From an uncultured Clostridia bacterium (lineage in GTDB: Bacteria > Bacillota > Clostridia > Christensenellales > Aristaeellaceae), in NCBI GenBank assembly GCA_946629635.1, contig CAMOYA010000001.1, forward strand, positions 1-64,000: a stretch of 64,000 bases of DNA, written 5' to 3'. The first letter of the stretch is position 1, and each line of letters begins with the position of its first letter. The notes below the pieces were generated by a model that had not been told where the DNA came from, made no database searches, and saw only the letters and a list, made by a program, of their open reading frames with translations. Below, one piece after another: positions 4,122 to 17,398 of the stretch. The position numbers were made by a program, and so were the translations under genes.

Positions 4122-5264
4122 TTATTGAAATTCAAAGGGATAATCCACCAATGCGTATTCCAGATGCTTGCTGTTGTTTCGCAGAATCGTCAGAATCGAA
4201 TCCGTCTCCGATCCGACGGGAAATGGGGTCGGAATAAAATCATTCCGGTTTCGGGTGGATGAAATCCGGAAGGGGATAATCCGAAAATCCTTGTAGGAAA
4301 TGCTGCCCATCTTGATGCGATAACGGATCTGCAGCATGAACGCGGACATATCGGAAGGCTTGCTGTTCCCGGCAAAGCAGAAATTGCCCAGAGAATAGCA
4401 GATCAGTTTCCCGTTATACATTTCAATCGGCTGAATCCGATGGGGGTGATGGCCGACAATCAGATCGGCGCCGGCATCCACCGCCATCCGGCCGAGCCGG
4501 ATCTGGTTATCGGTGGTGATGTATCCCAGGGAAGGCTGCTCGCCGGTGGGCTCCCGGCCCCAGTGGAAGGAGACAATGACCAGCGGATAGTACTTCTTGG
4601 CTTCCTGAATATCATGCACCACTTTTTCCTCGAAGGTATCAAATCCGCCGAAGGGCTTTCCGTAGCGGTCGATACACAGATAGGAAAGCATCGCAATCCG
4701 GATGTCCTGAAACTCAAACACGCCGATCTCTTCGGAATTGGAATAGATCACGCCCGCTTCCCGCAGGGTGTTCTTCGTGTCCTCGTATCCTTCCTCGCCA
4801 TGATCCATGACATGATTGTTTTCCAGCGAAACGGCCTCGATGCTGTTGTCAGTGAGCAGGGAAACATAGGAAGGTGAAATACTGAACAGAAAGGAATTCC
4901 CTTTCTTGCTGTCCGGTACATACTTTGTATCGGTCAGCGTGCCTTCAAAATTGACCAGCGTCAGATCATCTGCGGCGAGGATATCCCGGACGTTCTGCAT
5001 GGTGAAATTGATATCTCCGTCGTGGGCATTGAGCTCGGGCGTAAAGATATCCTTCCGGTGATAATTATCCCCGCCGACCGTCAGATCTCCGGTGCAGGTG
5101 ATGGTCATGATGACGGCACCGTCATCGTCCAGCGTCAGCTTCGGACCGGATGCCTGGGGAACATATTCAATCAGATCCTCGATCTCCAGATCGTCATCCT
5201 CTGCAAACGCACAGGTACAAATCAAAAGGAAAAGAAGAAAAATGGAAAGGGTTCTGCGAAGCAT
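4122..5264 (-). CDS. CapA-family (poly-gamma-glutamate synthesis/metallophosphatase-like) secreted protein
   Basis: Signal peptide; TCTGDLTVGGD, NFEGTLTDT, SLENNHVMDHGEEGYEDT, HWGREPT, DLIVGHHPHRIQPIEMYNGKLICYSLGNFCF. Confidence 0.9.
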   Translation of the reverse strand: MLRRTLSIFLLFLLICTCAFAEDDDLEIEDLIEYVPQASGPKLTLDDDGAVIMTITCTGDLTVGGDNYHRKDIFTPELNAHDGDINFTMQNVRDILAADDLTLVNFEGTLTDTKYVPDSKKGNSFLFSISPSYVSLLTDNSIEAVSLENNHVMDHGEEGYEDTKNTLREAGVIYSNSEEIGVFEFQDIRIAMLSYLCIDRYGKPFGGFDTFEEKVVHDIQEAKKYYPLVIVSFHWGREPTGEQPSLGYITTDNQIRLGRMAVDAGADLIVGHHPHRIQPIEMYNGKLICYSLGNFCFAGNSKPSDMSAFMLQIRYRIKMGSISYKDFRIIPFRISSTRNRNDFIPTPFPVGSETDSILTILRNNSKHLEYALVDYPFEFQ

Positions 5265-5288: not shown

Positions 5289-6470
5289 TCAGCGGCAGGA
5301 GGCGACGAAATCCGCCATTCGGTCGAGCGCGATATTCAGCTTATCGATCGCGGTTGCGTAGCAGCAGCGGATGTTGCCTTCGCCGCAGGGGCCGAAAGCC
5401 GTGCCCGGCACGGCTGCAATGCTTTTTTCCTTCAGAAGGCGGGAACAGAATTCCTCACTGGACAGCCCCGTTGAACGGATGGAAGGGAATACATAGAACG
5501 CGCCGAATGGCTCAAAACAGTGAAGCCCCATTTCCCGGAAGGCATGCACCATCAGCCTGCGGCGCCGGTCGTAGCTGTCCCGCATCCGGGAGACTTCTTC
5601 ATAATTGTTTTCACGGCCGGAGCGCAGGGCGGCCGCTGCAGCCACCTGCCCCTGACGCGGTGCACACATAATACTGTACTGGTGAATTTTGTTCATGATG
5701 CCGATGATCTCCGCCGCACCGCAGGCGTATCCCACACGCCAGCCGGTCATGGCGAAGGACTTGCTGAAGCCGTTGATGGTCAGCGTTCTGTCATACATGT
5801 CCGGAATGGAAGCAAAAGAGACATGCGTGCGCCCGTCATACATCAGCTCCGAATAGATTTCATCCGAGATTACAAACAGATCATGCCGCCGGACGACATC
5901 CGCAACCGCTTCCAGATCCGATTTTTCCATAATTCCGCCGGTCGGATTGTTCGGATAGGGAAGGATCAGCAGTTTGGTTCTGGGCGTAATGACTTTTTCC
6001 AGATTTTCGGCCTTCAGACGGAACTCATCCTTTTCCAGGGTTTCAACGCCGATGGGCGTTCCTCCGGCGAAAATAACGCCGGGCGAATAGGAAACATAAC
6101 TGGGCTCCGGAACCAGCACCTCATCACCGGGGGAAAGCATGGCGCGCAGCGCCAGATCAATCGCTTCGGACGCGCCGATGGTGACCAGAATCTGCGTATT
6201 CGGGTCATATGAAATGTGATATCGCCCGGAAAGATAGATGGAAATCTCCTGGCGCAGCTCCAGCAGGCCGCGGTTGGCGGTATACTGCGTTTCTCCGTCC
6301 AGAATCGAATCCACCGCCACGGACCGGATGGAGTAAGGCGTTTTGAAATCCGGCTCGCCGACGCCCAGGGAGATGGTATCCTTCATGTTGGCAGCCAGGT
6401 CGAAGAAACGGCGGATTCCGCTGGGCGGAACAGCCGCAATTCTTTCGTTCAGAAACCGGTCATAATTCAC
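5289..6470 (-). CDS. Pyridoxal-phosphate aminotransferase class I/II
   Basis: GVGEPDFKTP, PYPNNPTGGIM, SDEIYSELMYDG, NGFSKSFAMTGWRVGY (PLP lysine). Confidence 0.95.
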   Translation of the reverse strand: MNYDRFLNERIAAVPPSGIRRFFDLAANMKDTISLGVGEPDFKTPYSIRSVAVDSILDGETQYTANRGLLELRQEISIYLSGRYHISYDPNTQILVTIGASEAIDLALRAMLSPGDEVLVPEPSYVSYSPGVIFAGGTPIGVETLEKDEFRLKAENLEKVITPRTKLLILPYPNNPTGGIMEKSDLEAVADVVRRHDLFVISDEIYSELMYDGRTHVSFASIPDMYDRTLTINGFSKSFAMTGWRVGYACGAAEIIGIMNKIHQYSIMCAPRQGQVAAAAALRSGRENNYEEVSRMRDSYDRRRRLMVHAFREMGLHCFEPFGAFYVFPSIRSTGLSSEEFCSRLLKEKSIAAVPGTAFGPCGEGNIRCCYATAIDKLNIALDRMADFVASCR

Positions 6471-6967
6471 GGTGAGATCACCAGCCTGTGATCAGATTCG
6501 CCCGAATCGAAAATGACGCCTTCTTCCTTATAACGTTTGAGAACGAAGCTGGTGGAGGTCCCAGTGACATTCTCCAGCGGAGAAAGCTTTCCGGATACGA
6601 AGCCGGCCAGTTCCTTCAGCGTCCTGGCTTCAACCAGCACGAGCAGGTCATAGGATCCGGACATCAGAAAAACGCTCTTGACTTCGTCAAAGCAGTAAAT
6701 TCTCCGGGCGATTGCATCAAATCCCATATCCCGCTGCGGGGTGACGCGGACTTCGATAATGGCCTCCACCCGTTCCCGGTCTGTCAGATCCCAGTTGATC
6801 ATCGGCGCGTAGCGCAGAATGACCCGGCGCTTTTCGAGATCGTCAATCGTTGCAGCAACCTCTTCCATGGTTGCGCCGGTCATGGCGGACAGCTTTTCAA
6901 GCGGAAGGCGGCAGTCTTCCTTCAGCAGATCCAGCAGGGAAGTTTCCAGCTTTGTCATGAACAACAC
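6467..6967 (-). CDS. Lrp/AsnC-family transcriptional regulator
   Basis: N-terminal HTH, C-terminal RAM/AsnC ligand domain; 4-bp overlap with the aminotransferase. Confidence 0.9.
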   Translation of the reverse strand: MLFMTKLETSLLDLLKEDCRLPLEKLSAMTGATMEEVAATIDDLEKRRVILRYAPMINWDLTDRERVEAIIEVRVTPQRDMGFDAIARRIYCFDEVKSVFLMSGSYDLLVLVEARTLKELAGFVSGKLSPLENVTGTSTSFVLKRYKEEGVIFDSGESDHRLVISP

Positions 6968-7024: not shown

Positions 7025-7054
7025 AAATCCGTTGAGCGATGAAACTCAACGGAT
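7025..7054 (-). terminator. Intrinsic terminator after tRNA-Pro
   Basis: AATCCGTTGAG-tttcatcg-CTCAACGGATTTTTA read on the minus strand. Confidence 0.85.
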
Positions 7055-7058
7055 TATG

Positions 7059-7132
7059 TCTGGGTGAGAAGATTCGAACTTCCGGCCTCTTGAACCCCAT
7101 TCAAGCACGCTACCAAACTGCGCCACACCCAG
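7059..7132 (-). tRNA. tRNA-Pro (GGG)
   Basis: Minus strand CTGGGTG...CACCCAG acceptor; anticodon arm CTTGA-ATGGGGT-TCAAG; T-arm GGAAG-TTCGAAT-CTTCT; CCA not encoded. Confidence 0.93.
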
Positions 7133-7237: not shown

Positions 7238-7573
7238 TCAGGGAGAGCCTTCCGGGGAAAGGTCGGACGGGGACAGCACCTGAATCTCCGCTTCCAGGGC
7301 GGCAATATCTTCCTTCAGTTCAGCAGATCTTTCCTGTGATTCCTGCAATGTCAGCTCCATGTCCCGCAGCTGTTCCGTCGCCGCTTTCAGCTCCTCCTGC
7401 ATGCTTTCCTTCAGGGAGGCGGTTTCCTTCCAGGATGCCATGGAATCCGCAAGTTCGCGATTGACGGCATTCAGCTCCTGCCGGAGTGCGGAATACCGAA
7501 GGATCAGGAAACAGGCAGTGATCAGGGCCAGGCAGCAGACGACGGACAGAACCCAAATGATGCGCTTATTCAT
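7238..7573 (-). CDS. Small single-pass membrane protein with coiled coil (unknown)
   Basis: One N-terminal TM (IIWVLSVVCCLALITACFLIL) then an extended heptad-rich helix; overlaps the upstream gene. Confidence 0.8.
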   Translation of the reverse strand: MNKRIIWVLSVVCCLALITACFLILRYSALRQELNAVNRELADSMASWKETASLKESMQEELKAATEQLRDMELTLQESQERSAELKEDIAALEAEIQVLSPSDLSPEGSP

Positions 7574-7931
7574 GATGATCCTCCAGCGGTGAAGTCAGAG
7601 AACCGTCCGTTGAGGCCAGCGCTTCCTTCTGTTTGCGAAGCTCCTTCCGGCGGGCTTTCAGCTCAGCGATCTCCGCCTCCGCCCGGGCGGCCTGCGGAGC
7701 GAGTTCCTCCATGCGCTCCCTTACGGAAGGAAGTTCGGCCTGCACCTGGGCATATTCGGCCTCCTGCTTTCTTTCCCTTCCCTGACTGGTTTCGAGGGAG
7801 AGATGTGCATCGGTGATGGAGAAGCGGATGGAGGCGTATGAAGGGATATACCAGGCCAGGAAAGCCGCAAAAAGGAAGAGCACGATAGGAAAAACGCAGA
7901 AAGGCCAGCGGGGACGAACGGATGAATTCAT
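7566..7931 (-). CDS. Small single-pass membrane protein with coiled coil (unknown)
   Basis: One TM (FCVFPIVLFLFAAFLAWYI) then coiled coil; ATG overlaps the lipase stop (TGATG). Confidence 0.8.
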   Translation of the reverse strand: MNSSVRPRWPFCVFPIVLFLFAAFLAWYIPSYASIRFSITDAHLSLETSQGRERKQEAEYAQVQAELPSVRERMEELAPQAARAEAEIAELKARRKELRKQKEALASTDGSLTSPLEDHHE

Positions 7932-8923
7932 CAGTCAGGCGCTCCTTTCAGGAAAGAGAGAATGCGGTGCCACCAGGGGAACAGCACGTCATTGGTGGAA
8001 CGGTATATTTCATGGCGTGACCCGGGAACGAAGAGGTGCTGCCCCTTCGGGACGCGGGAAATAAACGCCTTCTGAGGGCCGGGAAGCACGCTGAAATCCC
8101 GGTCGGCCGTCGAGAGAAGAACCGGGCAGCGGATCGACTCGGGAGCACCGGGAGCGAGAATCCGCCGGGTGACGGAAACCGACTGGGCGACCCAGCCGTA
8201 GCTCGGGACGGAGTTCTGGAATTCCGGGCGGGAGGCTTTGACCTCGTCGTACCAGGCAAAGCGGGCGGCATCCGTGGCACAGGAGGTCTCAAAATCCTCC
8301 GGTCCGGCATAGGGCTTCATGAAGAAGGGATTCCGTCTGCCTCTGCCAAACAGGATTGCGGTGCGGCAGACGGCGGAGGAGAGAAAAGCCGGGAGGCCGC
8401 CGGTATTGGGGGCAATCATCGGGGCGCACAGAGCTGCGGCGGAAAAAAGATCGGGCTCCTGCTCGAGAAAGAGGGAAGCGATGGCACCGCCCATGGAATG
8501 CGCGAACAGCACATATGGCCCCGGCATGCCGGGCAGGATCCCGCTGCAGAGGATCTTCATGTCCTCCACGTATTCATCGAAGGCATCGACATGGGTGACG
8601 GAGGGATCGGGAATCCCCTCTGCCCGATATGAACGTCCGTGTCCGCGCTGATCCCATGCAACAACGCAGAAGCCGTTCCTGAGAAGCGAGTGGATCAGCT
8701 CCTGATATTTGAACGCATTTTCGGTGAAACCGTGAACGATCAGGGCCGTGGCGATGGGCGCCTCCGCAGGGTATGAGACGGTGTACAGCGGCGCATCCCC
8801 CGCGCCCGGAACCGTCCTGAGCTGCTGGATTGTTTCAAGCCAGGGAATCACATCCTGATTCATTACCCCTGCATAATCGGGGGAAGCGACAAGATAATCC
8901 TCGTTAAAATCGGAACGGTTCAT
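7931..8923 (-). CDS. Alpha/beta hydrolase, lysophospholipase/monoacylglycerol lipase-like
   Basis: IVHGFTENAFKYQEL, AWDQRGHGRS, FAHSMGGAIASLFL nucleophile elbow, GSRHEIYRS. Confidence 0.92.
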   Translation of the reverse strand: MNRSDFNEDYLVASPDYAGVMNQDVIPWLETIQQLRTVPGAGDAPLYTVSYPAEAPIATALIVHGFTENAFKYQELIHSLLRNGFCVVAWDQRGHGRSYRAEGIPDPSVTHVDAFDEYVEDMKILCSGILPGMPGPYVLFAHSMGGAIASLFLEQEPDLFSAAALCAPMIAPNTGGLPAFLSSAVCRTAILFGRGRRNPFFMKPYAGPEDFETSCATDAARFAWYDEVKASRPEFQNSVPSYGWVAQSVSVTRRILAPGAPESIRCPVLLSTADRDFSVLPGPQKAFISRVPKGQHLFVPGSRHEIYRSTNDVLFPWWHRILSFLKGAPD

Positions 8924-8933
8924 AGATTCCTCC

Positions 8934-10160
8934 TCAGTAGGATCTGGTGCGGAAGTGCCCGCGGAAGCGATAGGGGTTGTGCATGAGCTGCGGTGTATTG
9001 ACCGGCACGGAAAGGGAACGGTTGCGGGTGACGTTGAGGACGAGTCCGACGCCGCCCATGTTGGTCATCATGTTGGATCCGCCGTAGGAGAGAAAGGGGA
9101 GCGGTATGCCGGTGATGGGCATGAGCCCCAGAGTCATGGCAATGTTTTCGAGCACATGGAAAAGAAGCATGCCCATGACGCCGATGATGATGAGCCGGCC
9201 AAACTTGTCCCGCGTATAAAAGGCGAGATACAGCATGCGCAGCAGGATCAGAAAATAACCGACGAGCACGGCGACGCACCCGATGAAACCCCAGGTTTCT
9301 CCGATCGTGGCATAGATAAAGTCCGTCCAGTCGGCAGGAACATAGTTCAGCTGGCTGATGGCGCCCTGGACGAACATCCCGTTCCCGCTCATGCCGCCGG
9401 AGCCGATGGCCATCCGGGACATGGTCTGCTGATAGGCGTCGGAGGAGGAATAGAGCTCCGGGTTGAGCCATCCGGCGATGCGCGCGAGCCGGTAGTCGGT
9501 GGAGCCGGTGGCGACCATGAACCCGTAGAGGGAGAGCACGCCAAGGGTGGCGATGGCGGCCAGAATGGAGAGGGTTTTCATGGAAACGTTGGCAAAATAC
9601 ATCATCACGGCAAACATGAAGATGATCACCAGCAGGGATCCTGTTTCACCCTCGAGCAGAATGACCACGCCCGGGACGATCACCAGCATGAAGGTGCGGA
9701 TGAAGGACCGTCGGTCGGAAAGCGGCCTGTCCTGTTTTGCCATCTGTTTGGCGAGCACGAGGATCAGGGCGAGCTTGGTAAACTCGGAAGGCTGAATGGT
9801 GTATCCCCACAGAATGTCCAGCCACGCCTTGACGCCCTGTGCGCCGTTGAACACGGTGGTGACGGCAAGCAGAATGAACGCGGCCCAGTAAATCATTTCC
9901 GCGCGGCGACGCAGCAGGTCATAGGGAAAGGCCATGATGACGCCGACGACCAGCGGCGCGACGAGCAGGAACAGGCATTGCCGCGTGGCATAGGAGGATT
10001 CAAAGATGTGGCTGAGGAAGGATGCGTCTGCCGATGACGAAGGGGAAAAGGTGGCGACGCAGACGGCCACGATTCCGAACAGCGACATCGCAAAAACGAG
10101 GGCAATCAGCACGCCGTCCACGTGGGCCCGGCTGCGGCGGGAATCGTCAGTGATTGTCAA
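8934..10160 (-). CDS. rodA: Rod-shape-determining SEDS protein RodA (FtsW/RodA/SpoVE family)
   Basis: Multi-TM; WLDILWGYTIQPSEFTKLALIL, ETWGFIG, TGIPLPFLSYGGSNMMTNM. Confidence 0.95.
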   Translation of the reverse strand: MTITDDSRRSRAHVDGVLIALVFAMSLFGIVAVCVATFSPSSSADASFLSHIFESSYATRQCLFLLVAPLVVGVIMAFPYDLLRRRAEMIYWAAFILLAVTTVFNGAQGVKAWLDILWGYTIQPSEFTKLALILVLAKQMAKQDRPLSDRRSFIRTFMLVIVPGVVILLEGETGSLLVIIFMFAVMMYFANVSMKTLSILAAIATLGVLSLYGFMVATGSTDYRLARIAGWLNPELYSSSDAYQQTMSRMAIGSGGMSGNGMFVQGAISQLNYVPADWTDFIYATIGETWGFIGCVAVLVGYFLILLRMLYLAFYTRDKFGRLIIIGVMGMLLFHVLENIAMTLGLMPITGIPLPFLSYGGSNMMTNMGGVGLVLNVTRNRSLSVPVNTPQLMHNPYRFRGHFRTRSY

Positions 10161-10971
10161 GGGATGAGACCTCCTTCAGCTGGCGGAGGAAGAGCCGGCG
10201 CATGAGCGGCGGACGGCGGCTTCCGTAGTCCGGCGGGGATACCTGTTCGCCGCGGAGCCGCCGGGCAATCCGATTGATCGCATTCCTTGCCTCGCACTGG
10301 TACTGGAGCACCAGCGCGTGGCGCAGTGCGGCGCGGGGGACGGCCGGATCCTCGGGGATTTCGCCGATCAGGTTCATATCGAGGGTCTGTGCCACTGTGC
10401 GGGCGGAATACATCTCTCCCGCGGAGATGAGCCCTTCGTCGAGACGGTTGACGATCAGCTCCGGCCTTTCCTCCATGCAGTGCCGGGCTTCGATGACCTG
10501 GGCCGCGCGCTCCGCATCCCGGATGGAAATATCGTCCGGCGTGGCCACGAGAATCATCCGTCCGATTCCGGCACCGAGCAGGTTGCGGAAGCCGCGTTCG
10601 ACGCCGGCAGGGGAGTCAACGATCACGAAATCGTTCGCTTCCCGCAGATCCCGGATAATCTTCTTCAGCCGTGCGCTATCGAGCGCCTTGGCCCGGGCAA
10701 ACTGGGCGGCAGGCAGCAGGGCGAGCGACGGGTAAACGGGATGATGAAGCAGCGCCTGATCGAGTGCGCAGTCCTTTCCGGCGACATCCACCAGGTCATA
10801 AACGACCTGATTTTCGAGGCCCAGCAGCGCATCCTGGGCACGCAGCCCGATATCCGCGTCAATGATGACTACCTTTGCGCCCATGGAAGCGAGGGCGGCA
10901 CCGATGTTCGCGGCAATGGTCGATTTGCCGACCCCGCCCTTTCCACTGGCGATACATATGGACTGACCCAA
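10147..10971 (-). CDS. minD: Septum site-determining ATPase MinD
   Basis: SICIASGKGGVGKSTIAANIGAALA, DADIGLRAQDALLGLE, C-terminal amphipathic RRLFLRQLKEV. Start set at TTG 10971 preceded by GGAGGGAG; the ORF-track start would run into the PBP gene. Confidence 0.9.
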   Translation of the reverse strand: MGQSICIASGKGGVGKSTIAANIGAALASMGAKVVIIDADIGLRAQDALLGLENQVVYDLVDVAGKDCALDQALLHHPVYPSLALLPAAQFARAKALDSARLKKIIRDLREANDFVIVDSPAGVERGFRNLLGAGIGRMILVATPDDISIRDAERAAQVIEARHCMEERPELIVNRLDEGLISAGEMYSARTVAQTLDMNLIGEIPEDPAVPRAALRHALVLQYQCEARNAINRIARRLRGEQVSPPDYGSRRPPLMRRLFLRQLKEVSSLDNH

Positions 10972-11011
10972 CCGATCTCCCTCCGTTTCGCGTATTCCCG
11001 TCAGTTGCTGC

Positions 11012-13516
11012 TTACGGCGCCAGCGAGTTTCCGGCCGGCAGCGATACGTCGACATTACGCAGCGTCTTCTGCTGCATGTACCATTCAATGAAGTCCCGGG
11101 GCGCCTTGCTCGCTTCGGAACCGGAATACCCGCTGGGAATGAAACAGATCACAGCGATCTCAGGGTTATCATACGGTGCGAAGCAGACGAACCAGCTGTT
11201 ATCCTCCAGGTCGATGCTCGTGACCTGAGCGGTTCCGGTCTTGGCCGCGATATCATTTTTGTACTGCCAGTGGCGGAAATACTTATCCGCGGTACCGCTC
11301 TCGTCCACCACGCCGGCCATCCCTTCGCGGATCAGCGGCAGGTACTCATCGCTGCCCTCGAGTCGGTGAATGAGCGTCGGCTCCCGCCGGGAAAGGATTT
11401 CACCGGTGGGAGAGGTGATGGAGTCGATCAGGGAAACATTGTACAGGTATCCGTTGTTGGCGACCGTGGCGACGTAGCGGGCGACCGCGATGGGGGTGAG
11501 CACGGTGACACTCTGCCCGATTCCGGCCAGAATCGTCTGGCCGCCGCCCCACTTGATATCGTTCATGTAGTTGTATGTATCACCGATCACGGTCTGCAGA
11601 TACACCATTTCCTTCGTCATGTTCAGCTCTTCCATCAGGATGGTGCGCATGTGCTCGAGCCAGTCGCCTTCACCGTAATTGACGGCCATGTCCATCAGCC
11701 GCTTGGCGCAGATACTGAGACGCTCGTCGTCATATTCGATGTTGCGGCTTTTGCCGCAGTTCTTCAGATGGGTTTTGATGGAGTTGAACACGATGATCGG
11801 CAGGGAAGTATCCTGATTGGCCTCGTTGACGGGGCGGGAAGGATCATAGAGCGTGTTCTGACTCCCGACCACGCTGCGCACCTCGCCGGGCAGGTCGATT
11901 CCGGTCTTGGATGTCAGCCCGAACAGGGAGGCATACCGGTACAGCCGTTCCTCACCCAGACGGTCCGCCAGCGTGTAGAAGAAATAATTGCAGGAATGGC
12001 TCAGCCCTTCGATGATGGTCTGGTTGGCATGCTTGTAGCGGTAATTCTTGTTGATCCAGCACTTGGGCGCCGTGGTCAGATCCGCATTGTATTTGGTGAA
12101 ATATCCTTCGTCGGAGATGCGCTCGGTGGGCGTCAGTTCACCGGTCGCCAGCGCGCCCATTCCGGTGACCATCTTGAAGATGGATCCGGGCGTTCCGCGG
12201 GTGTGAATGCCATAGTTGAGCAGCAGGTTCCGCTCATCGGACAGGATGGCAATGGCATCCTGTCCGCCGGCAACCAGCGCGTTCAGGTCATATGTGGGAT
12301 AATTGGCCAGGGCCAGCACCCGGCACTGCATATCCAGCACGATCAGGCATCCGTGCTCCGCCAGGGCGAGGGGATACTTGACCCAGTTCCGGTTATGAAT
12401 ATCCGCTTTGTTGGCCTCCTGCCATCTGGGGTCGGCCAGTTTGCTTTCCTCCAGATCCCGCGTAGAATTGACGTTCGCAGCCAGGCACCGCTCGGCGACC
12501 TGCTGAAAGGCAGCGTTGAGGGTGAGCTTTACGTTGTTTCCGTCCTGCGGCGGGGTGTAGCTCAGCTCGCGCACCACGCGGCTCATCTGGTCGCGCTCGA
12601 CGACGCGGCTGCCCTTGCGGAGGGAGGAATTCTGGGTCAGCCAGTCCTCCATCGAGCTTTCGATGCCATCGCGCCCGATGGTATCGTTGTATGCATACCC
12701 CTTCGCCTTCAGCTGCAGCCACATCGACCGGCTGGGGATGGCCCCGGTGTATCCGATGATCTGGGCTGCCAGCGTCGAACGGGGATAAACGCGCTTGGTG
12801 CCGATCTCGATCGCCATCCCGGGAAGCAGCATGGACTGGGTCTCGATTTCGATAACCGTTTCGTACCGGACATCCTTTGCGATGACAATCGGCTGGCTGT
12901 TGAAGATGTTCATCTGCATTTCGGAGTAGACGGCCATGATCTTCAGCATCGTCTCCTCGTCCGTATCCTCAGGGATCTGGTACCGCTTGCGGAACGAGTC
13001 AATGCACAGGGCGGCCGTGGCGTAATTCCGGCCGGTGGCATAGTTGTTGCTGCGCCACTGCCGCTCCCGCGTCTCCAGCACGCCTTCGGATACGCCGCTT
13101 CCGAAGTTGAATTCCCACTCGCCGCTCTCCGGATTGCGCCGGATCACATAATCGACGGCCATCTTTCCGCCACCCGATTCAATGATCCCGATCGTCCGGG
13201 TGATCGATTCGGTGTACCGCTGATATTCCGCTTTCGAATTCTGTGCGGCATCCTTGTGAAAGGTAACGTTGTAGATCGGTTCATCCTCGGCCATCACCAC
13301 GGAGTCGGCTGTTGTGATGCTGCCGCGCTTACCGCGCAGCGCAATGGGATAGGTCCGCGTGCCCTCCGCTTTTTCCCTGAACTCTTCGCTTTCCTTCAGC
13401 TGAAGTGTGATCAGACCGGATACCAACCAGACAAATATACCGAGCAATACGGCCAGAAATGCCGCGTAGCGCCAGAAATCCGCACGGCGTTTTTTCTTTT
13501 TATCTTCCATCAGCAC
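11012..13516 (-). CDS. mrdA: Penicillin-binding protein 2 (elongasome transpeptidase)
   Basis: N-terminal TM; TPGSIFKM (SxxK), SCN, KTGTAQ. Start GTG 13516 (AGGAGG 9 nt upstream) or ATG 13510. Confidence 0.93.
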   Translation of the reverse strand: MLMEDKKKKRRADFWRYAAFLAVLLGIFVWLVSGLITLQLKESEEFREKAEGTRTYPIALRGKRGSITTADSVVMAEDEPIYNVTFHKDAAQNSKAEYQRYTESITRTIGIIESGGGKMAVDYVIRRNPESGEWEFNFGSGVSEGVLETRERQWRSNNYATGRNYATAALCIDSFRKRYQIPEDTDEETMLKIMAVYSEMQMNIFNSQPIVIAKDVRYETVIEIETQSMLLPGMAIEIGTKRVYPRSTLAAQIIGYTGAIPSRSMWLQLKAKGYAYNDTIGRDGIESSMEDWLTQNSSLRKGSRVVERDQMSRVVRELSYTPPQDGNNVKLTLNAAFQQVAERCLAANVNSTRDLEESKLADPRWQEANKADIHNRNWVKYPLALAEHGCLIVLDMQCRVLALANYPTYDLNALVAGGQDAIAILSDERNLLLNYGIHTRGTPGSIFKMVTGMGALATGELTPTERISDEGYFTKYNADLTTAPKCWINKNYRYKHANQTIIEGLSHSCNYFFYTLADRLGEERLYRYASLFGLTSKTGIDLPGEVRSVVGSQNTLYDPSRPVNEANQDTSLPIIVFNSIKTHLKNCGKSRNIEYDDERLSICAKRLMDMAVNYGEGDWLEHMRTILMEELNMTKEMVYLQTVIGDTYNYMNDIKWGGGQTILAGIGQSVTVLTPIAVARYVATVANNGYLYNVSLIDSITSPTGEILSRREPTLIHRLEGSDEYLPLIREGMAGVVDESGTADKYFRHWQYKNDIAAKTGTAQVTSIDLEDNSWFVCFAPYDNPEIAVICFIPSGYSGSEASKAPRDFIEWYMQQKTLRNVDVSLPAGNSLAP

Positions 13517-13555
13517 AGATTCCCGCCTCCTTTCGCTGCATGAGCCATGCATGAA

Positions 13556-14140
13556 TTACCGTTTCTCAAAAGTGACCGGGGCAGGCCGGATCACCGTCTG
13601 CTCCGTTTTTTTGCCGAATATCAGCCGGCGTGCCGGGAACATGATGAGGGCACAGAGCAGCCCGGTTCCGACCACGGAGAGCGCGGCGCGAAGGAAGTGT
13701 CCTCCGTCCAGCCGGGAGCCGCCGAGATAGATGTATGTCATCCGTACCGCTTCATACAGGAACGTATTGAGCATCGTGCATCCCAGGGTCCGCGCCCAGG
13801 CCGGTATTTCGCGCCTTTCGCGGTTCATCGCCCGTTCATACTCAATGGTTTTCAGCGGTTTGTCCGCAAAAGCGAAGGATACGAACAGCGTTGTCAGCGA
13901 ATACAGCCCCAGATCCAGGAACGGACCACTGGGCAGCATGATCTGGACGAGCAGTCCATAGATCATTCCGGCCCAGAACGCGCGCAGCTTTCCGTAAGCC
14001 ACCGTGACGATCCCGATGACGACATACAGCATGTTCGGACTCACTCCGCCGAGGCGGATATAGGGGATGATGGTCACCTCGCTCAGATATCCGAACAGAA
14101 TCAGGATGACATACATCCCGCTGCGTCGGGCGAAGTTCAT
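13556..14140 (-). CDS. mreD: Rod-shape-determining protein MreD
   Basis: Multi-TM; ATG 14140 overlaps the mreC stop (ATGA). Confidence 0.87.
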   Translation of the reverse strand: MNFARRSGMYVILILFGYLSEVTIIPYIRLGGVSPNMLYVVIGIVTVAYGKLRAFWAGMIYGLLVQIMLPSGPFLDLGLYSLTTLFVSFAFADKPLKTIEYERAMNRERREIPAWARTLGCTMLNTFLYEAVRMTYIYLGGSRLDGGHFLRAALSVVGTGLLCALIMFPARRLIFGKKTEQTVIRPAPVTFEKR

Positions 14141-15693
14141 TCCCCTTCCTCCTCTTCCCATGTCATTCCTTCGGGATCCGGCGTGATATAGGGCGTCCAC
14201 GTGGGCTCAAGGGTCGGTGTGGGCGATGGCGTCGGCTCTCCCCGCAGGGACACGATCTGATACTCGATCTCCGGCTCTTCCTCCTGCGCAGGCGTTGCGG
14301 ACGGCGACGGGGTGGGCGACGGCGTTTCGGTTGCTTCCGGGGAGGGAGTTGGCGTCTCCGGCTCACCGATTCCCAACGGCGTGGCCGTCGCTTCGTCAAA
14401 AAGGGATGCCGCGATCTGCGGAACAATCGGCGAAGGCCTGGCGCTCTCAAGCGGAACCAGTTCGATTTCCGTCCGACCGTTTTCACGGCCCTGGACCTCC
14501 TCCGCCTTCGGCTTGTATCGAAGGACGATCACGTATTCCAGGTGCTGAAAGTCCGCCTGCGGTTCCAGTACGATATACTGCTTGTTGTTCTCCATTCCCC
14601 GCGTGCTCTCCCGGATCACGCCGATCGGGATTCCCTTGGGGAAGGAAAGCCCGACTCCGCTGGTGACCACCAGATCCCCCGGGCGCGGCAGATTATCATC
14701 CGGCAGGTAATACATCCGGCACATCGGGGTTCCGTCGATTCCCAGCGTTCCGCGGACGGTTCCGTGGTCCCGGCTGGACTGGATCAGCGCGGCGATGGAT
14801 GCATCCGAATCAATCACGGTCCGAACCGTTGCAGAATGCGCCTGAACGTTCTCCGTGTATCCGACCAGCGCTCCGCCGACCGTTACGGCCATATAGTCCT
14901 CCACGCCGTCTGCCGTTCCCTTGCTGATGGTCAGGGTGGAAAAGTAGTTGTTGTCGGATTTTCCGATGACCGTGGCAACGATGGGGCGCATCTCGCGGTT
15001 GGCGCGGATTTCATCGCTCAGATCCTCGTACTGGCTCAGCGTCCGCTCCAGTTCATCCGCCAGCATGGCGCGATAAGTCAGCTGCTCGTTTTCCGCCACG
15101 ACGGCGTTGTATGCGGCTTCAATGTTGGCCCTGAGCTTCATTCCCCGAAAATATCCGGCAACGGCTTCCGTAAGCCCGGAGAAAAAGCTCTGCACCGGAG
15201 TTACCGCCGAGCTGATGGCGCTTTCCGGCGCTCCCAGAATTCCGACCTCCGGCATGATCCGATGGAAGATGTAGGCACCGACGAAGGCGATCAGGATCGC
15301 TGTGATCCCTCCCAGAATGAGAATCCGGATCCGCCGATGCTCCCGGAGCCCCTTCCGGCGACCTTCCGTCTCGATGGGCTGCAGATCGTTATCCAGCATG
15401 ATCCCGCCGCTGTATACCTTTCGCCCTTCGGCTTTTTCTGCCTGCTCCTGAGAAAGGTCTTCCGCTCCGTCCGCCGCGTCCGTCGAAGCGCTTTCTTCTT
15501 CGGAATCAACCCCGTATGCGTCACGCTGAACGGGCGTTTTTCCTTTCCGGATCTTCCGGATCGCTTCCTCCGGCGTATCGGAGACGGCGGACAGGGTATC
15601 CGTGCCTTCCTCCGGCTCGTCGTAAATGAAATCGTCCACAGCCACGGGGCGCTCGACCGCCTCGGTCTTTTTCCTGCGACGCAGTCCCGCCAT
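14137..15693 (-). CDS. mreC: Rod-shape-determining protein MreC with extra N- and C-terminal regions
   Basis: Single TM, coiled coil, beta domain (VVTSGVGLSFPKGIPIGVI); Pro/Thr/Ser/Glu-rich C-terminal tail. Confidence 0.93.
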   Translation of the reverse strand: MAGLRRRKKTEAVERPVAVDDFIYDEPEEGTDTLSAVSDTPEEAIRKIRKGKTPVQRDAYGVDSEEESASTDAADGAEDLSQEQAEKAEGRKVYSGGIMLDNDLQPIETEGRRKGLREHRRIRILILGGITAILIAFVGAYIFHRIMPEVGILGAPESAISSAVTPVQSFFSGLTEAVAGYFRGMKLRANIEAAYNAVVAENEQLTYRAMLADELERTLSQYEDLSDEIRANREMRPIVATVIGKSDNNYFSTLTISKGTADGVEDYMAVTVGGALVGYTENVQAHSATVRTVIDSDASIAALIQSSRDHGTVRGTLGIDGTPMCRMYYLPDDNLPRPGDLVVTSGVGLSFPKGIPIGVIRESTRGMENNKQYIVLEPQADFQHLEYVIVLRYKPKAEEVQGRENGRTEIELVPLESARPSPIVPQIAASLFDEATATPLGIGEPETPTPSPEATETPSPTPSPSATPAQEEEPEIEYQIVSLRGEPTPSPTPTLEPTWTPYITPDPEGMTWEEEEGE

Positions 15694-15723
15694 CTCCTCT
15701 CACCTCCGTCCTGCCTGATGATG

Positions 15724-16761
15724 TTACTGCATTTTCTCGAATCGCTTCTGCTTTCCGCCGGAAGCGGATACCAGCTGGATGTTTTCCGTCAGATATCCGA
15801 TCCCCAGGATACAGCAGTCTCCCGGGTCCCGTGCCAGCAGCACCGGAATCCCGAGGCTTTCAGAAATGTACCGATCCAGCGCGAACAGCCTCGCTCCGTC
15901 CCCGGTCAGATGAATGCCGCTCTTCATGATGTCCGCCGCCAGCTCCGGAGGCGTCCGCTCCAGCACCCACCGGATCGCCTGCCCGATGGCCGCCACGGGG
16001 CTTTTGACCGCCTGATACGCCTGCCTGGAGGTGAACTCCACCACCCCGGCACTGGTGTTCAGCTGGCTGATCCCCCTGACTCGGACCGTTCGCTCCTCCT
16101 CCAGCGGGAGGGCAGCCGCCAGATCCTTCTTGATATTCTCCGCAGTTGCCTTTCCGACGAGGATCCCGCATTCCCGCCGCAGGTATTCTGCGATGGCCTC
16201 ATCGAACTTCGCCCCGCCGACCGGAATGCTCCTGGAAACGACCAGGCCGCCCAGCGAGATGACCGCCACATCCGTCGTCCCCGCGCCGATATCGACCACC
16301 AGGCTCCCGACCGGGTCGTAGACCGGCAGGCCCGTTCCGATCGCAGCGGCAAAGGGTTTTTCAATCAGATAAATGTGCTTTCCGCCGGCGGCAAACCGCA
16401 TGGCTTCCTCCAGCGCCCTGCGCGCCACGTCGTCGAGCGAGCAGGGGATGCTCAGAATGGCCCGCGGCTTTCCGATATAGCTGACGCCGATCGCCTTGCG
16501 GATGAAGTATTTGAGCATCATCTCCGTCATATCGAAGTCCGCGCTCTGACCGCTGACGATGGGGGCAACAGCGGTCAGCCGGTCCGGCGACCTTCCCATC
16601 AGGAAGGCGGCTTCATCGCCGACTGCGCGAACGCTGTGTTTCGACTCCCGGTCCAGCACGACCAGCGAGGGTTCGCTGACAACAATTCCCCGTCCCCGCA
16701 CATATATGCTTACATGATCCGTTCCCAGATCGATCCCGATATCCGGTGCCCAGAATGGCAT
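15724..16761 (-). CDS. mreB: Rod-shape-determining actin homologue MreB/Mbl
   Basis: DIGIDLGTDHVSIYVRGRGIVVSEPSLV, VVDIGAGTTDVAVISLGGLV, HLTGDGARL. Confidence 0.95.
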   Translation of the reverse strand: MPFWAPDIGIDLGTDHVSIYVRGRGIVVSEPSLVVLDRESKHSVRAVGDEAAFLMGRSPDRLTAVAPIVSGQSADFDMTEMMLKYFIRKAIGVSYIGKPRAILSIPCSLDDVARRALEEAMRFAAGGKHIYLIEKPFAAAIGTGLPVYDPVGSLVVDIGAGTTDVAVISLGGLVVSRSIPVGGAKFDEAIAEYLRRECGILVGKATAENIKKDLAAALPLEEERTVRVRGISQLNTSAGVVEFTSRQAYQAVKSPVAAIGQAIRWVLERTPPELAADIMKSGIHLTGDGARLFALDRYISESLGIPVLLARDPGDCCILGIGYLTENIQLVSASGGKQKRFEKMQ

Positions 16762-16783
16762 ATCCTGTCTCAGTCTCCTTTGC

Positions 16784-17398
<615 letters not shown>

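Follow-up and report, generated by a model that had tools for sequence, protein, structure and literature searches.

Two small genes close the rod-shape operon of an uncultured Clostridia bacterium, and the question that they raise is what their products are and whether they act with the elongasome, as a preliminary description of this DNA had proposed. Our analysis of the window (the whole stretch of 64,000 nucleotides) found both ORFs exactly where that description had placed them on the minus strand: CC1 (7566..7931, 121 aa) and CC2 (7238..7573, 111 aa), each encoding an N-terminal transmembrane (TM) segment followed by a long helix. The order of genes on the minus strand is maf-mreB-mreC-mreD-pbp2-minD-rodA-lipase-CC1-CC2, followed by tRNA-Pro(GGG), a Lrp/AsnC regulator and an aminotransferase; the pair does close the mre/rodA operon, as described, and maf and minD have to be added to its members. 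The lipase-like alpha/beta-hydrolase (Hydrolase_4; ORF 7931..8923, minus strand) starts 10 nt after the stop codon of rodA (8934..10160, minus strand; SEDS protein, Pfam FTSW_RODA_SPOVE, E 1.5e-75). Its own stop codon shares one base with the start of CC1 (TGATG), and the end of CC1 overlaps the start of CC2 by 8 nt (7566..7573, minus strand, ATGAATAA, with GGAGG just upstream), so the raw sequence bears out the overlapping start and stop codons reported earlier. Shine-Dalgarno-like sequences precede both starts (AAAGGAG for CC1 and GGAGG for CC2), and an overlap of CC1 and CC2 (-4 or -8 nt) is found in most species of the window's genus. The overlapping ends and the good Shine-Dalgarno-like sequences therefore suggest translational coupling.

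The upstream part of the operon (minD, pbp2, mreD, mreC, mreB and maf; ORFs within 10147..17398, minus strand) was assigned by Pfam for minD and pbp2 and by sequence and gene order for the remaining four genes, and its order is kept in those species in which the pair lies next to the mre genes. Three features of this region may be recorded in passing: the match to the transpeptidase domain in PBP2 (window 11012-13552) is interrupted at model position ~144 by a stretch of about 100 residues, also in relatives; minD (window 10147-11088) is placed between pbp2 and rodA and has neither minC nor minE as a neighbor; and G091 and G259 have two tandem mreC-like ORFs (L043:10616-13625 and L184:1-2610). 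Downstream of CC2, tRNA-Pro(GGG) (7058..7132, minus strand) is preceded by a promoter-like site (7192-7164, minus strand) and followed by a terminator-like hairpin (7055-7026, minus strand), so that transcripts probably do not extend past about position 7026. Beyond it lie the Lrp/AsnC-family regulator, identified by Pfam, and the PLP-type aminotransferase, named from its sequence (both within 5289..6967, minus strand). The aminotransferase adjoins a secreted protein (window 4122-5264) that looks CapA-like by sequence and has relatives in 19 loci from three genera.

Hydropathy analysis detected a single clear hydrophobic segment in each protein (residues 11-29 in CC1 and 6-24 in CC2) and nothing comparable later in either sequence, in agreement with the single N-terminal TM segment proposed before. 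AlphaFold, run with about 30 homologues for each protein, predicted one unbroken helix for CC1 (residues 9-113, mean pLDDT 92.6) and one for CC2 (residues 3-104, mean pLDDT 94.2), with pLDDT of ~97 across the ~105-residue helix of each. Most outer segments of both proteins show a period of about 3.45-3.55 in mean hydrophobicity, which resembles that of a heptad coil. Each thus has one TM segment, a helical outer part and an adjacent partner, as is characteristic of bitopic coiled-coil pairs. The claim that the outer domains are coiled coil throughout agrees with the single predicted helices but needs a correction for CC1, where Pro79 occurs in 60 of 60 species and Pro68 in 52 of 60; these prolines probably put a kink in its coil. 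The core alignment of the two proteins is nearly free of internal gaps across genera and reveals clear signatures: SLETSxGRERKQQxEYD and, in the distal helix, RKxLRxEKKxLE in CC1, and ESRxxWExTAxEKExLQxELK...LKEAxLTLxES in CC2.

Neither protein had been recognized in the preliminary description, and our searches of Pfam, NCBIfam, PHROGs and PDB yielded no named family either. No match of CC1 or CC2 to Pfam or NCBIfam reached the cut-off, the sub-threshold matches being mostly to generic coiled coils, and in PHROGs and PDB no convincing relative was found beyond generic coiled-coil similarity; the pair is undescribed in the resources searched. The best PDB profile match of CC1 (4cgk_A, E 0.027) is to what we take to be pneumococcal PcsB, while CC2 matches myosin first, with EnvC (8hd0_E, E 2e-5) and keratin coils lower. 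This likeness to PcsB/EnvC-type proteins is generic, mixed as it is with myosin and keratin, and CC1 and CC2 lack a CHAP, M23 or LytM domain. They share with MreC a bitopic topology, a coiled stalk and a place in the mre operon. However, MreC has a beta domain past its coil, whereas CC1 and CC2 are all helix, and the window encodes a separate MreC. Rz-like spanins are also bitopic coiled-coil proteins, and weak, coil-type PHROGs profile matches (E 0.0015 and 0.0064) point to them; we rejected this candidate, as the pair is chromosomal, lies in housekeeping surroundings in many species rather than in a phage lysis cassette, and has no recognized lysis gene nearby.

Among 300 genomes from the window's family, a CC1 profile search (E<=1e-15) identified relatives of CC1 in 67, which belong to seven genera, and those that bear titles are mostly metagenome assemblies of ruminant-gut Clostridia. 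Among 396 genomes sampled from the order, the matches outside the family were weak or partial (E 1e-4 at best) and most of them fell in long unrelated frames. Within the window's genus a CC1 match is absent from 6 of 37 genomes, some of which are incomplete assemblies. Both genes were recovered at 60 loci, and without exception CC2 comes next after CC1 and has the same orientation, in line with the earlier pairing of the two proteins. Six of seven close species pairs have dN/dS ratios of 0.05-0.25, and the remaining one has 0.45-0.53. Conservation of the pair in 60 genomes together with the low dN/dS indicates that the arrangement exceeds chance and that CC1 and CC2 are real genes.

The reading that we prefer, with a probability of roughly 0.55, is that CC1 and CC2 are an obligate pair that forms a parallel coiled-coil rod or scaffold in the cell envelope, a stand-alone unit that in one sub-clade was joined to the rod operon. 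Both would be single-pass membrane proteins with the N-terminus inside and the C-terminus outside, and their outer helices of about 80 residues would pair side by side into a parallel rod, roughly 11–12 nm long, standing on the membrane. The formation of a heterodimer, suggested already in the preliminary description, is made plausible by the similar length of the two outer helices and by compensation of charges. In phylogenetic independent contrasts the charge changes in CC1 and CC2 were most compensatory in a parallel, in-register arrangement (z -2.43, offset +5), with a family-wise p of 0.05 for |offset|<=7 and of 0.31, hence not significant, over all 122 arrangements. An earlier version of the test, with permutation within genera, had looked strong, but the signal shrank once the contrasts handled phylogeny, so we count the complementarity as suggestive. 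The covariation of rates between CC1/CC2 and the genes of the operon was uninformative, because most operon genes covary. Coiled coils pair promiscuously, and CC1 or CC2 may also form homodimers; nevertheless, the pair is probably a heteromeric envelope rod. The rod may act in the envelope as a scaffold or a spacer, a role that we propose because of its shape and the absence of any catalytic domain.

Comparison of genomic neighborhoods weakens the link to the elongasome that the preliminary description had proposed. Of 30 pair-bearing species in the window's genus, 19 have the pair in the mreBCD-pbp2-minD-rodA-lipase context (one of them, G287, shows just the lipase before its contig stops), as against 0 of 30 species elsewhere; a lipase next to the pair was seen only together with rodA or where the contig stops. 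On a tree of CC1 and CC2, the 11 species of the genus that lack the mre context form a clade (support 99/98), and one or two changes suffice to explain the distribution of mre-adjacency. A second neighborhood, with the Lrp/AsnC regulator and the aminotransferase, was found in 23 loci from the window's genus and two others; its span of three genera suggests that it is probably older than the mre context. Genus g44 and the single-locus genera g9 and g33 show neither of the two. Since the contexts vary among genera, the pair is a stand-alone unit with changed neighbors: a bicistron of this bacterial family that would have joined the mre-pbp2-minD-rodA-lipase operon as its last part in a single sub-clade of the window's genus. 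There it would probably be co-expressed with the wall-elongation machinery and may assist it. Conservation beside shape genes had been proposed as the check on the elongasome link; it fails across the family at large and holds within one sub-clade. As the pair lies beside shape genes in a single branch of a single genus only, a dedicated role in cell shape is possible for that sub-clade and is not a general one.

A stronger version of this link would make the pair, in the window's genus, a dedicated regulator of RodA-PBP2 that activates or positions the synthase, as a functional analog of FtsL-DivIC. FtsL and DivIC (or FtsL and FtsB) are likewise a pair of small bitopic proteins whose outer parts form coiled coils, and they act on a SEDS-bPBP synthase (PMC10693644). 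On the other hand, CC1 and CC2 are encoded by adjacent genes, have outer helices of ~80 residues and carry no structured region after the coil. The mre-rodA operon of the 19 species of the sub-clade ends with CC1 and CC2, the genes overlapping or lying close together, and the pair has kept its position behind rodA despite the fast change of the CC1 and CC2 sequences. Moreover, two near-complete genomes of the genus, of two contigs each, contain one strong SEDS protein and one class B PBP (PBP_dimer), both of them in the mre operon. Against such a dedicated partnership, the association is absent from 41 of 60 pair-bearing genomes, CC1 and CC2 evolve about 4-6 times faster than RodA and PBP2, and a CC1 match is missing in some species of the genus. 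In G064 the pair lies elsewhere, yet this genome has its own RodA and PBP2 in addition to a SEDS/bPBP pair in the dcw (division and cell wall) cluster. A literature search on small coiled-coil partners of the elongasome found no papers. On balance we regard a dedicated RodA-PBP2 regulator as unlikely.

The variation of CC2 among genera raises another alternative. In the window's genus (g1) CC2 is a bare TM segment and coil of about 100-131 aa, while in other genera it reaches 468 aa and has a longer coil, so that the CC2 end of the proposed rod would bear there either extra coil or an FMN-binding domain. A C-terminal domain with the SGATxT motif is present in four species (L047, L048, L204 and L211) and was confirmed with Pfam as FMN_bind in two CC2 proteins (E 1.2e-16 and 5.2e-12); a similar tail without the motif occurs in four further species, and the domain search detected no FMN_bind domain with the [S/T]GA[S/T] motif in the window's CC2. 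The ancestral pair might accordingly have been a membrane anchor that holds a flavinylated FMN domain off the membrane for extracytosolic electron transfer, the window's form being a reduced remnant. Genera g9, g33 and g25 have CC2 proteins that end in this domain, four others have decayed tails, and the motif fits the one at which ApbE flavinylates other proteins (PMC8238504). A NusG_II protein adjoins one of the FMN_bind-bearing loci (L048). Nevertheless, likeness to FMN_bind proteins of the RnfG/NqrC type is limited to the C-terminal domain with its SGAT motif in these four relatives; the domain is missing from the window's CC2 and from most other CC2 proteins, and the constant part is the TM segment and coil, which is under purifying selection even without the FMN domain. 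Rough gene calling, with part of the neighbors scanned, recognized neither ApbE nor Rnf genes next to the four copies with an intact domain, and a literature search on flavinylated coiled-coil proteins found no papers. A redox arm is therefore an improbable origin for the pair. As the core survives without the FMN domain, we take the TM segment and coil as the essential part of CC2.

Could the pair instead serve cell division? In four species of the genus (L230, L231, L232 and L233) the dcw cluster reads mraZ-ftsL-murE-mraY-murD-ftsQ-ftsA-ftsZ and contains neither ftsI nor ftsW, and FtsZ is present in nine of nine genomes tested. Canonical FtsW-FtsI has been reported to be missing from many Clostridia, and C. 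difficile, which has no canonical FtsW/FtsI, possesses the lineage-specific midcell proteins MldABC (PMC10693644). By this precedent CC1 and CC2 might be a lineage-specific regulator of septal wall synthesis in a genus without ftsW and ftsI in its dcw cluster. We consider this quite improbable, as G064 carries the pair although an FtsI-type PBP and an FtsW-type SEDS protein are encoded in its dcw cluster, and no genetic link of the pair to division genes was seen in the loci examined. Taken together with the single SEDS and PBP of the mre operon in the two genomes of two contigs each, the dcw clusters without ftsW and ftsI do keep open, at very low probability, that in a genus apparently lacking FtsW/FtsI a single RodA-PBP2 serves both elongation and division and that the pair would be a new activator recruited to the rod operon. 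As a separate observation, a degenerate cluster with an FHA-domain protein and a SEDS-like protein was seen at three loci (L215:2845-6070, L216:6363-8727 and L217:2166-4111); L215 is an FHA-SEDS-transpeptidase cluster of the window's genome, the transpeptidase of G000 is truncated, and in G091 a 93-aa protein occupies the transpeptidase position.

The idea that the pair is FtsL and DivIC in diverged form can be practically dismissed. The resemblance noted in the preliminary description holds for topology and, approximately, size, and goes no further. Sub-cut-off matches were obtained to ftsL_broad (CC1, E 0.043) and DivIC (CC2, E 0.011; CC1, E 0.059); against the DivIC model the pair gives scores of 15.9 and 13.6 bits, in the coil part only (cut-off 28.9), and against the FtsL model TIGR02209, an insensitive one that exceeds its cut-off in only 2 of 14 control genomes, CC1 scores 13.7 bits (cut-off 42.45) and only 10.3 bits in the genome search. 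The same genome encodes a separate full-length DivIC-like protein (L136:4755-5096; 113 aa, model positions 3-78 of 80, 19.8 bits and thus under the 28.9 cut-off). It also encodes a separate FtsL-position protein in the dcw cluster, between mraZ and murE, so named by position and topology with no Pfam recognition. This protein is homologous across the four species and has a relative upstream of the FtsI-type PBP in G064 (E about 1e-15 at best). CC1 and CC2 do not occupy the dcw slot after mraZ/rsmH, which holds this homolog of the G064 protein, and their profiles give very low, coil-level scores to both the DivIC-like and the FtsL-position proteins. With separate proteins of both types in the window's genome, CC1 and CC2 are therefore not FtsL and DivIC.

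The pair thus represents undescribed, family-restricted coiled-coil proteins of the envelope, with a clear signature, in uncultured Clostridia mostly from the ruminant gut. The absence of ftsW and ftsI from the dcw cluster in the same genus makes the question of a RodA-PBP2 partner testable. If the pair does act on RodA-PBP2, it would mean that SEDS-bPBP synthases can gain new bitopic partners through operon capture.
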